NCBI GenBank assembly: GCA_015521735.1
Contig: WANQ01000005.1
Coordinates: 1-49,929 of the forward strand
Direction: 5' to 3'
From: Pyrodictiaceae archaeon
Lineage (GTDB): Archaea; Thermoproteota; Thermoprotei_A; Sulfolobales; WANQ01
Length of the DNA stretch: 49,929 bases
Shown here: piece by piece, positions 18,572 through 42,312 of the stretch
Numbering within the stretch: position 1 is the first letter of the stretch
Layout: each line of letters starts with the position of its first letter
Position numbers and translations under genes: made by a program
The notes under the pieces: generated by a model
Databases searched by the model: none
What the model saw: the letters and a program-made list of their open reading frames with translations, nothing else
What the model was told of the DNA's origin: nothing

Positions 18572-19315
18572 CTATAAGGGAGTCTTTCTCTCCTTAATCT
18601 TTTCTAGTATTGTTGGTTGTTTTCTTAATTGTTCTAGTGTTATTGTTCCACGTGGCTTTGTGGCTACTAGTACGTATATTGATCTTATCCCTGTTTCCAG
18701 GATGTCTACGTCTTTGAAGAATAGCCACAGCAGTGCTCCAAGGGCTGCTATACTCCAATAGTATAGTTCCATGTATGTGTTTCTCCTTGGGTCTCCTAGG
18801 TCTATTACTATTCTCTTACATGTTCCTTTCAATGGGTTGTAGTCTACGTATATGTCTAGTACGGTTCTATTCTTGCCTTCTACGACGTTTATGTGACGGT
18901 AGCCTCCATGGACTATGTGGTAGAATCTATCTGATTCCTCTAGAACTAGTACACCATCCCCTACTAGGATACCGGCTATTGAGGCTAAGAGCTTGTTCAT
19001 GGCCCATGGATTGAAGTGTGGTGTTGACGAACCCCACATTACTGCTAGGTCAAATGTCTTGTTTAAGGTGTATAGCATGGTTACGTCTATGGCGTGGGTT
19101 TCTGGTTCTATGCCTAATTCCCTAGTTATCCATTCAACTCCTTTTAGGAGAGCGTTTGATCTGATGTCTACGAGTGTTAGTGTTACCCTATAGCCTTTCT
19201 CTAATAGTAGTTTAGCGAACACGTAGCCTCCGATACCAGTACCACTACATACGTCAATTATTCTGATAAGGTCTTTGCCTTCAAGGATTTTGGCTAAGAA
19301 CTTGTGTTCCAGCAC
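18572..19315 (-). CDS. SAM-dependent methyltransferase (class I), N-terminus uncertain
   Basis: At least 247 residues from GTG 19315. Motif I RIIDVCSGTGIGGYVFA and an acidic TLVDIRSN strand show a Rossmann methyltransferase; the target is unknown. Coding sequence clearly continues upstream in frame to about 19405 (LYDIFPWPEDPSDSNFSERL) without ATG, GTG or TTG. Either it starts at a non-standard codon (ATA 19391-19393), or a TTG/GTG start near 19430 in another frame is joined by a +1 shift. No operon partner; it precedes vapBC on the same strand. Confidence 0.65.
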   Translation of the reverse strand: MLEHKFLAKILEGKDLIRIIDVCSGTGIGGYVFAKLLLEKGYRVTLTLVDIRSNALLKGVEWITRELGIEPETHAIDVTMLYTLNKTFDLAVMWGSSTPHFNPWAMNKLLASIAGILVGDGVLVLEESDRFYHIVHGGYRHINVVEGKNRTVLDIYVDYNPLKGTCKRIVIDLGDPRRNTYMELYYWSIAALGALLWLFFKDVDILETGIRSIYVLVATKPRGTITLEQLRKQPTILEKIKERKTPL

Positions 19316-19491
19316 TCTTTTGGCAAGGTCTAGGCTTATTCTTAGCCTTTCAGAGAAGTTAGAATCACTTGGGTCTTCAGGCCATGGAAATATATCATAG
19401 AGTTTATTTAGGTTTGATAATCTCGATCACCAATATAATGTTTTAAGATAAACGATATATAAACATAGTTTTTCGAGTAATTATGGTTCTT

Positions 19492-38923: not shown

Positions 38924-39030
38924 CAGTTTTTATCTAAACTTATAATAGCTATTAAACTCTACTAGGAAAATAAATGCTTAGCTGTAGGCATGGGCAAACA
39001 CAGGGAGTAGTACGTGTAAGGTGATAGAGC

Positions 39031-39711
39031 ATAATAAAGCTTAATAGATCTATAGGTGTAATAGTACTTGATCCCAAACTATTTGTTAAAGTATTAGAGA
39101 AGTTAAGACCACGAAACATTAACATAGTTGTTCCAACTAATGGTATCAATATCGATGAAATAAGAGATAAAGTAGACGTGATAATTATTGATAGAGATGT
39201 ACGCGATAGACTTAAGTTACCAGAGCATGATCATTCAGTAATAGTTATTGAAAGCTTAGACGAAATCGATAAGCACATAGAAAGAGCATTATGCATGATA
39301 CAGGGTAAGGAAGAGTATGATGAAGTAATAATAGGTGTTGACGTAGGCCCTGAATACATAGCTTATGCAGTTGTAGCCGACGGCGAGATAATTGAGGTGA
39401 ATAAAACAGTTATTGAAGACTTCCTAGAAAAGGTCAAGTCAATTGTATTAAACTATCCATATAAGTCAATGATAATTAGAATAGGGTCCTCAAGTAAAGG
39501 CCCAGAAATAGCTCTTAAACTACATAACCTACTAAACAAGTTTAACGTAGTAATAGAGCTAGTTGAAGAGGAAAGTACTTCTAAACATACGCTAATAACA
39601 TTAAACTATGGTAGAATACGTGACAAAGATCTAAGTGCAGCAGTAAACATATCATTTAAACAAGGAGTAAAAATCGGCTCACACATGGATTCCCAGTTAA
39701 ATAACGTATAG
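39031..39711 (+). CDS. RNase H-fold protein (YqgF/RuvC-like), probable ATA start
   Basis: About 226 residues if read from ATA 39031, which follows GGTGAT with a 5-base spacer. The first standard start is GTG 39178, but clear coding sequence (IGVIVLDPKLFVKVLEKL, NIVVPTNG) precedes it. The core IIGVDVGPEYIAYAVVADG resembles the first strand-loop of YqgF/RuvX, and ELVEEESTSK plus RDKDLSAAVNISFKQG match its later motifs. A Holliday-junction or RNA nuclease role is possible. Just upstream of the Clp1-like kinase. Confidence 0.65.
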   Translation: MIKLNRSIGVIVLDPKLFVKVLEKLRPRNINIVVPTNGINIDEIRDKVDVIIIDRDVRDRLKLPEHDHSVIVIESLDEIDKHIERALCMIQGKEEYDEVIIGVDVGPEYIAYAVVADGEIIEVNKTVIEDFLEKVKSIVLNYPYKSMIIRIGSSSKGPEIALKLHNLLNKFNVVIELVEEESTSKHTLITLNYGRIRDKDLSAAVNISFKQGVKIGSHMDSQLNNV

Positions 39712-39739: not shown

Positions 39740-41044
39740 ATGATAATGAACGTGGAACTTGAAAAGAATAAGATAATAAGAATAAATGGTCCGGCAGCCA
39801 TAAAGGTGATAAATGGCTCAATAAAGATCTTAGGAGCAACATATAATGAAGGCGAACGCCTAATAATTAACAAGTATAGAAGCTATGCTTTAAAATGCAT
39901 AGATGATAAAGCAGTAATTGAAGTCTCACTAGGTGATGGAGGAGCTATAGAAGAGCCAAGCGAAGGAGAAGAAGTAGTAGATATTTGGGAGGAAAACATC
40001 GGGAAAATAGTAGAGGAGTGTAGGAGTAGGAAATGTAGGATAATTGTGGTAGGCCCAGTAGAGAGTGGCAAGTCTTCACTAACAGCATTCATAGCAAACA
40101 TGTCATTAGAAAAGGGGTTAAAGCCAATAGTAATAGACGCAGATGTAGGTCAAGCCGATATAGGACCACCAGGCTTCATATCAGCTGCTATAGTAGAAAA
40201 CAAAATCCTATGGCTACGTGACCTTAAAGCTAATTACCTGAAAATAGTTGGATCTATTACTCCAGCACATGTAATGCATAAGATCATTAGCAATACTATG
40301 TTCTTAGTTAATTGTGTTAAGGATTCTGGCGATATAATAATAATAGATACAGATGGATGGGTGCAGGGATACCAAGCAATTGAGTATAAAATAGATTTAG
40401 TAAGAGCAATTAATCCAACTCATGTAATAGTATTAGCGGACAAACAATTAGCAAATGCCTTGGAGAATGCTTTTAAAGATAATACAAGTATTAACGTGGT
40501 TCACCTACCGTCACCTAAGGTAGTCAGGAAAAGGGATAGAGATGATAGAAGATATCTTAGGAGTAAATCGTATAGAAGGTACCTTGAAGATGGTAAGATT
40601 AGGAAGATAAAGCTAAGAGAAATAGGATTAATAGGTTCAGCTCTATTTATTGGTGAAAAAGTAGATCTAAACACACTAAGAGAAATATTGAAGCCATCCA
40701 ACATTACACCGCTTTATGCCTCAGCTCTACATAATACACTGTTCATAGTAGTCGACAAGCAACAAGTCAATATACGTAGTATAGTTGAAGCAGTTTCACA
40801 GAAACTAGGATTCTCAGAAGTATACGTATTCACTAAGGGGTTTGAGAAAGGCTTACTTGTAGGCTTAATTGGTGAAGACCCCAATAGCGAAGTACCAGGA
40901 ATAGTAACATCAATAGACTTCAATAAAGAGGAAATAAGCATTCAAACAAAGTATGAAGGGAAAATACGTGCCATAATATTTAGTAAGATAAAGTTATCCG
41001 ATGAATGGGAGGAGGTGGGTAAGCCTTCACGATATATGATCTAG
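39740..41044 (+). CDS. Clp1/Grc3-like polynucleotide 5'-kinase
   Basis: A 434-residue protein. An N-terminal beta domain precedes the P-loop VVGPVESGKSSLTAFIANM (~115), followed by VIDADVGQADIGPPG and DIIIIDTDGWVQGY, typical of Clp1/Grc3. It phosphorylates 5'-hydroxyl ends of RNA (and DNA), which would arise from tRNA intron splicing; this genome has such introns. ATG 39740 follows GAAGGAG. Its 3' end overlaps the UbiD-type gene if ATA 41032 is the start there. Confidence 0.88.
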   Translation: MIMNVELEKNKIIRINGPAAIKVINGSIKILGATYNEGERLIINKYRSYALKCIDDKAVIEVSLGDGGAIEEPSEGEEVVDIWEENIGKIVEECRSRKCRIIVVGPVESGKSSLTAFIANMSLEKGLKPIVIDADVGQADIGPPGFISAAIVENKILWLRDLKANYLKIVGSITPAHVMHKIISNTMFLVNCVKDSGDIIIIDTDGWVQGYQAIEYKIDLVRAINPTHVIVLADKQLANALENAFKDNTSINVVHLPSPKVVRKRDRDDRRYLRSKSYRRYLEDGKIRKIKLREIGLIGSALFIGEKVDLNTLREILKPSNITPLYASALHNTLFIVVDKQQVNIRSIVEAVSQKLGFSEVYVFTKGFEKGLLVGLIGEDPNSEVPGIVTSIDFNKEEISIQTKYEGKIRAIIFSKIKLSDEWEEVGKPSRYMI

Positions 41045-42312
41045 GATCATTTATTGAAGCATTGAAGAAGGAAAACCTAGTTGACACAATATATAGGGAG
41101 GTAAGTGTTGAGTATGAGCCAACACGTATATTGTTGAAAGGTGATGTTGAAGGTAAGACAATAGTATTCAAGAATATAAGTAATTGTATAGGTAGTGGAG
41201 TAGGAAACTTAGTAAACACGAGAAAGAAACTATACATGGCCTTAAACTCCAATACTGATGAGGAAGCATACAAGCGAATTATTGAGGCTTTAAACTCAAA
41301 GCCCAAGTTTAAGGTAAGAGCATTTGAACTTAACGAGTCTAAGGTGGACTTAACAAGACTTCCAGCCATAAAATTTTACCCTAGAGATGGTGGTAGATAT
41401 ATTACATCGAGTATAATAATAGCATGCTTAGATGATGAAACATGTAACGCCTCAATACACAGAATACTTGTCCTAGGCAAACGTGAACTCGTTGCTAGGA
41501 TTGTCCCTAGACACTTATACTACATTTACAAACAAAACAGGCTGAAAGGAAAAGATACGCCTATAGCAATAATAGTAGGAGTTCACCCATCAATACTTCT
41601 CTCAGCATCTATGAGTCCTCCTTTCGGAGTATTCGAGCTAGGGTTAACTCACAAGCTAACTGGAGAAATACTTGACGTAGCTTATACACCAGAATACAAT
41701 ATTCCAGTACCACTACATAGCCAAATAGTGATAGAGGCAAAAATAACAGGTCAGCTTGTCGATGAAGGCCCTTTTGTAGACTTAACATTAACTTATGATA
41801 AAATACGTAAGCAACCATTAATACGTGTTGAGAAAATATATATGCATGAAAACCCATTATTCCACATAATTTTACCTGGAGGAAGAGAACATCAATTACT
41901 AATGGGCTTTCCACGTGAAGCAATGATCTGGGAGAATATTAGGAAAGTAGTACCAAAGGTACATAAAGTAAGATTAACAATAGGTGGTGGCGGATGGCTT
42001 CACGCTGTTGTAGCCATTGATAAGAATAGTGAAGGAGATGCCAAAAACGCTATATTGGCAGCTTTTGCCGCTCACCCAAGCCTTAAACATGTAGTAGTCG
42101 TAGACGGTGATATAGATCCAGATAATCCATACGAAGTTGAATGGGCTATTGCAACAAGATTCCAAGCAGATAAAGACATAGTGATAATAAGAAACGCTAG
42201 GGGTTCAAGCCTCGACCCTTCATCAAGTAACGGCTTAACAACTAAGATGGGTATTGATGCTACAGCTCCTCTACATGAACGCGAGAAGTATATCAAGGTT
42301 AAACCACCTTGA
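41032..42312 (+). CDS. UbiD-family decarboxylase, probably anhydromevalonate phosphate decarboxylase; ATA start likely
   Basis: About 426 residues of the UbiD family: VGVHPSILLSASMSPPFGVFELGL, PVPLHSQIVIEAKITGQ, DEGPFVDLTLTYD and the C-terminal GGGGWLHAVVAIDKNSEGD. The enzyme needs prenylated FMN. Linkage to the two aconitase-X subunits indicates trans-anhydromevalonate 5-phosphate decarboxylase of the archaeal mevalonate pathway. TTG 41062 would cut the conserved first helix; ATA 41032 gives YDLGSFIEALKK as in homologues, behind GGAGGTG at 41011-41017. Confidence 0.87.
   Translation: MYDLGSFIEALKKENLVDTIYREVSVEYEPTRILLKGDVEGKTIVFKNISNCIGSGVGNLVNTRKKLYMALNSNTDEEAYKRIIEALNSKPKFKVRAFELNESKVDLTRLPAIKFYPRDGGRYITSSIIIACLDDETCNASIHRILVLGKRELVARIVPRHLYYIYKQNRLKGKDTPIAIIVGVHPSILLSASMSPPFGVFELGLTHKLTGEILDVAYTPEYNIPVPLHSQIVIEAKITGQLVDEGPFVDLTLTYDKIRKQPLIRVEKIYMHENPLFHIILPGGREHQLLMGFPREAMIWENIRKVVPKVHKVRLTIGGGGWLHAVVAIDKNSEGDAKNAILAAFAAHPSLKHVVVVDGDIDPDNPYEVEWAIATRFQADKDIVIIRNARGSSLDPSSSNGLTTKMGIDATAPLHEREKYIKVKPP

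Follow-up and report, generated by a model that had tools for sequence, protein, structure and literature searches.

An AUA codon as the probable start of a conserved archaeal gene, with AUA and AUC starts on ribosomal protein P1 in related families

We analysed a window of 49,929 nucleotides, contig 5 of a draft genome (G000; 2.03 Mb in 44 contigs), for a gene whose reading frame offers no canonical start codon near its front. From its relatives and its tRNAs we infer a crenarchaeon close to the Desulfurococcales. The features of the locus are as follows.

38962-38976, forward strand: possible BRE/TATA-like element AGGAAAATAAATGCT, inferred from reading the sequence, without transcription start data
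39020-39025, forward strand: Shine-Dalgarno (SD) motif GGTGAT; ATG starts throughout the genome have this hexamer register ahead of them
39025-39027, forward strand: in-frame TAG stop, which bars any start farther upstream
39031-39033, forward strand: proposed start codon ATA, on the basis of SD spacing, orthologue starts and coding score
39034-39036, forward strand: second ATA, a fallback start 8 nt from the SD
39178-39180, forward strand: first in-frame canonical start, GTG, at residue 50; without an SD upstream and unlikely to be the true start
39031-39711 (stop codon included), forward strand: gene for a 226-residue protein with a predicted N-terminal alpha/beta domain and a possible RuvX/YqgF-like RNase H fold

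On direct reading, GGTGAT, the spacer AGAGC, ATA, ATA and AAG follow one another from 39020 onward, exactly as the initial annotation had described them, and this 20-base start-site string occurs once in the genome. The stop codon that had been said to rule out an upstream ATG is indeed in frame, at 39025-39027, and therefore no start farther upstream is possible. The 49 open codons claimed between ATA 39031 and GTG 39178 were likewise confirmed: the GTG lies exactly 49 codons 3' of the ATA, with no earlier in-frame ATG, GTG or TTG. The codon-usage score of the stop-to-stop ORF peaks exactly from 39031. The BRE/TATA-like element, if real, would possibly put a short leader ahead of the SD.

As tests of a near-cognate start we asked for a ribosome-binding signal standing ahead of the ATA at the customary distance, for canonical starts at homologous positions in relatives, and for the absence of a canonical start between the stop and the conserved sequence. 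The first was met by GGTGAT-N5-ATA. The SD-to-ATG spacing in this genome has its mode at 5 nt (15 ATG sites), the same as for ATA 39031, and GAGGTGAT-type hexamers stand at this 5-nt spacing ahead of ATG starts. The 3' end of the 16S rRNA of this genome was not located with the pattern used, and a match of GGTGAT to its own 16S rRNA remains unshown. The second test was met for this gene and for two others described below, ribosomal protein P1 and an MBF1-like protein. In several orthologues the start is TTG, ATG or GTG and lies no more than about 6 residues from the ATA: those of family f9 start at a TTG corresponding to query residue 3, and those of G012, G015, G020 and G033 have canonical starts no farther than about 4-5 residues from residue 1. 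No canonical start precedes residue 19 in the G001 and G002 orthologues (sister genus) or residue 48 in that of G025 (another family), and the last carries only an ATA, 6 nt past GGTGAG. A point against the reading is that the start in G001 and G002 is itself unclear (CTG or GTA), so that the family does not keep the ATA in this gene.

The alternative that survives best is that the true start is a neighbouring non-canonical codon, namely ATA 39034, AGC 39028, CTT 39040 or ATA 39052. ATA 39034 cannot be excluded, and its 8-nt spacing would fit the seven cases in this genome in which ATG stands 8 nt past the SD. Against a neighbouring codon, 5 nt is the modal spacing and the one used in P1, the MBF1-like gene and an HTH-CBS gene. 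We consider such a shift unlikely, and either ATA, 39031 or 39034, leaves the main conclusion unchanged.

We further considered whether GTG 39178, a canonical codon, is where translation starts, the stretch before it remaining untranslated. GTG is a standard archaeal start, and gene callers limited to ATG, GTG and TTG would pick this codon. However, the 42 codons upstream of it are better conserved as protein than the remainder: residues 8-49 are 52% identical to those of G001, the rest of the protein 37%. Codon differences to G001 in residues 8-49 number 13, 10 and 27 at positions 1, 2 and 3, and on such comparison this segment is under protein-level constraint. An orthologue was found in 24 of 40 relatives. 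Orthologues without the N-terminal segment, which the initial annotation had named as grounds for abandoning its reading, were looked for, and this condition did not hold: most of the 24 align from query residues 1-10. AlphaFold2 gave a model with a mean pLDDT of 86.7, in which strand 1 comprises residues 7-11 and helix 1 residues 15-28, and residue 50 falls within the confidently predicted N-terminal domain. A start at GTG 39178, which also lacks an SD, would cut this domain and lose its conserved first strands and helices. Given the conserved N-terminus, the positions at which orthologues start and the domain structure, we rejected it and regard it as very unlikely. From alignment and model together, we hold with high confidence that the 49 codons 5' of the GTG are conserved coding sequence. 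The third test was also met, as no canonical start stands between the stop and the conserved sequence, which begins near residue 8.

The protein that an ATA start would give has no matching Pfam or NCBIfam family. Its model consists of an N-terminal alpha/beta domain joined to an RNase H-like domain, and D104, E180 and D200 are invariant in the orthologue comparison. Foldseek returned RuvX/YqgF matches at TM 0.3-0.5 only. The MID-PIWI parts of Argonautes matched the whole length, also with low TM-scores.

We then examined start codons elsewhere in this genome, using a 415 kb sample for start-codon statistics and genome-wide pattern searches. GGTGATN5ATA occurs at 20 sites, and at four of these it opens a long coding ORF: the 39031 gene and the first three genes listed here. 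The remaining four genes listed have rarer start candidates or, in one case, an ATA 14 nt from the SD.

G000:C9:2704-3027, reverse strand (locus L074): ribosomal protein P1; ATA at site 3024, 5 nt past GGAGGTGAT
C10, 88683, reverse strand: HrcA-like HTH-CBS protein; GGTGATN5ATA
C26, 15307: MBF1-like zinc-ribbon/HTH protein; GGTGATN5ATA
G000:C15:9746-10966, reverse strand (locus L073): class I/II aminotransferase; GGTGAT-N5-CTG before the conserved N-terminus
G000:C10:98026-98598, forward strand (locus L060): methyltransferase; TGAGGTG, then ACG; no canonical start for 124 codons
Window 18572-19426, reverse strand: methyltransferase-like gene; GGTGAT-N5-TTA at 19420; no canonical start for 35 codons
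Window 41023-42312, forward strand: UbiD decarboxylase; no ATG, GTG or TTG in the first 13 codons (GCC TTC ACG ATA ...)

A canonical start in the P1 gene of this genome comes only 37 codons farther on, and standard annotation would consequently truncate or lose the protein. In the HTH-CBS gene, the ATA of this genome corresponds in position to an ATC in G001 and G003 (sister genus); both codons lie 5 nt past GGTGAT or GGTGAC, and no canonical codon stands between the stop and the conserved protein. In the MBF1-like gene, where the leader can be aligned, G001-G003 have an ATG one codon away from the ATA of this genome. At predicted gene starts in the 415 kb, the codon 5 nt past GGTGAT was ATG in seven cases, ATA in three, and CTG, TTA, GTT and GAG in one each. 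As ATA makes up 6.4% of codons, finding it in 3 of 7 non-canonical cases (binomial P about 0.008) indicates that GGTGAT-N5-ATA starts occur beyond chance. In G032, a Sulfolobus-like control, the tally of SD-linked starts contained no ATA, and genes without a canonical start were fewer (2 of 170, versus 13 of 395). Against a reading of AUA as the start, the SD hexamer by itself is short and, of the 20 GGTGATN5ATA sites, 16 do not coincide with the start of a gene.

Candidates beyond ATA and ATC were rarer and comprised CTG, ACG and TTA; the CTG of L073 and the ACG of L060 are strong ones. In the L073 aminotransferase 139 codons pass without a canonical start, the first ATG, GTG or TTG coming about 140 codons in, and the sister-genus ATG lies one codon from the CTG. 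The UbiD gene was considered as a further ATA case in the window but is not a clean one, since its first codons overlap the end of a Clp1-like gene and its ATA is 14 nt from the SD. In an f9 genome (G021, L158-L167), an SD-spaced ATA is a candidate for an ABC-transporter gene, and a CTG past AGGTGAGGTATT for a large gene.

The comparison that decided the matter was that of ribosomal protein P1, whose N-terminal sequence M-E-Y-I/V-Y does not vary. The TIGR03685 profile matches P1 from profile position 2, and in G000, G001 and G002 the Met position of this motif is an ATA past GGAGGTG, one codon after a stop. Within the order we counted canonical starts, and non-canonical ones where an in-frame stop stands 2-3 codons 5' with no canonical codon between. 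P1 starts with ATA in at least 15 genomes and with ATC in at least 15, that is, in at least 30 genomes from five families. The counts by family were as follows.

f1: ATA in at least 3
f10: ATA in at least 1
f8: ATA in at least 4
f4: ATA in at least 1, ATC in at least 1
f9: ATA in at least 6, ATC in at least 14, ATG in at least 3
f3: ATG in at least 10
f6: ATG in at least 3

ATG is likewise the P1 start in the Sulfolobus-like family f11 and in eight genomes of the phylum that belong to other families; of the P1 loci retrieved from more distant archaea, nearly all have it too. Among the sites listed for f9, ATC was commoner than ATA. ATT was not seen as a P1 start among the sites listed, though ATA, ATC and ATT are all third-position near-cognates. 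A CTC start for P1 in G029 was rejected, as an in-frame TTG lies two codons upstream, and ACG at f4 and some f9 P1 starts was set aside as ambiguous, since there a GTG or ATG in frame shares bases with the SD. A scan of named genomes gave few close relatives; in one of them, a Desulfurococcales MAG (JALXCO010000269.1), the P1 start is ATA, but an in-frame GTG overlaps the SD.

These counts bear on whether the ATA is merely an assembly or base-calling error for a real ATG, as could be feared of a draft in 44 contigs. The independent genomes G001, G002, G010, G011, G012, G039 and others have ATA or ATC at P1, and four genes of one genome show ATA; recurrence across genomes and genes is something that sequencing error cannot explain, which makes an error extremely unlikely. 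Editing of the mRNA (A-to-I, so that AUA is read as AUG and the ribosome sees a normal start) would account for the AUA and UUA cases but not for ATC, as in P1 and HTH-CBS of sister taxa, or for CTG, and can be virtually dismissed.

Taken together, the sequence comparisons indicate that the 5' segment is coding, that no canonical start can yield it, that the SD spacing is right, and that homologous start positions interchange between ATG, ATA and ATC. It is thus very probable that the 39031-39711 gene is translated from an AUA start, although transcript, footprint and peptide data are lacking. The initial annotation had proposed an ATA start for this gene; the start is supported, and the scope has to be widened to ATA and ATC across several families.

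Initiation at AUA 39031, the use of Met-tRNAi and the role of a strong SD as enabling factor are our inferences. GGUGAU would pair with the anti-SD and so place the 30S subunit, and the initiator Met-tRNAi (CAU) would accept AUA with a third-position mismatch. Met-tRNAi could pair with AUA or AUC at two positions while the SD keeps the codon in the P site, and the protein made from AUA 39031 would probably begin with Met. The genome has a normal set of three CAU tRNAs: besides an initiator with A1-U72 and a G-C-rich anticodon stem, there is an elongator with an intron and one tRNA of the Ile2 type. A special initiator tRNA with a UAU anticodon was not encountered: the initiator at C10:90230 has the anticodon CAU, and there was no UAU anticodon among the tRNAs read in this genome. 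The sequence cannot show modification of C34. As the initiator anticodon is a normal CAU, near-cognate initiation by Met-tRNAi, anchored by the SD, is the likeliest mechanism.

Archaeal aIF1 destabilises complexes on non-AUG mRNA (PMC6237735), so AUA and AUC starts could respond to aIF1. We tentatively suggest that start-codon choice may be relaxed in several families of the order, with AUA and AUC, though apparently not AUU, serving as regular initiators under a strong SD, and that such starts have become fixed on P1 in these families. This might serve to control the supply of ribosome stalk through aIF1 stringency, or it might involve a modified initiator C34; as a whole the proposal is plausible and falls somewhat short of even odds. 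Should P1, a universal ribosomal protein, be translated from AUA and AUC in five families, near-cognate initiation would be regular and evolutionarily maintained in these archaea. Standard annotation shortens the genes concerned or overlooks them, and gene finders lose the N-terminal parts of real proteins. With its ATA or ATC versus ATG, the P1 leader offers a concrete system for testing how start-codon fidelity depends on aIF1, aIF2 and the SD.

AUC, AUU and AUA have been described as rare starts (PMC9094748), and a review of archaeal initiation, in the part available to us, lists AUG, GUG and UUG as start codons and no others (PMC7531240). We found no report of archaeal AUA or AUC starts in the open-licence literature; subscription papers were outside our scope. 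In layout, the site resembles standard archaeal SD-led initiation: the P. abyssi aEF1A mRNA has GGAGGUGAU-N4-AUG (PMC6237735), nearly the same arrangement as GGTGAT-N5 here. Chloroplast genes with conserved non-AUG starts, as far as the accessible portion of the source describes them (PMC9845219), are similar in that such starts are kept by evolution in particular genes, and differ in belonging to an organelle system. The GTC start codon of Streptomyces sigR, which is repressed by IF3 (PMC5472188), is likewise a single near-cognate start in a regulated and mis-annotated gene, but it is bacterial, the codon is GTC and not AUA or AUC, and regulation is proven for sigR only. Bacterial infC, encoding IF3, has an ATT or ATC start codon and is autoregulated by IF3 (PMC5472188); it too is a core translation gene with a conserved near-cognate start that automatic annotation misses. 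Archaea, in contrast, are without IF3, their fidelity factor being aIF1 (PMC6237735). An aIF1 gene with a near-cognate start, as a counterpart of infC, is not suggested: nearly all the relatives that were read offer an ATG there (the locus of this genome and two others were not included), and as the readable aIF1 genes start with ATG there is no sign of aIF1 self-regulation. Unlike infC, the genes with near-cognate starts here are P1 and others.
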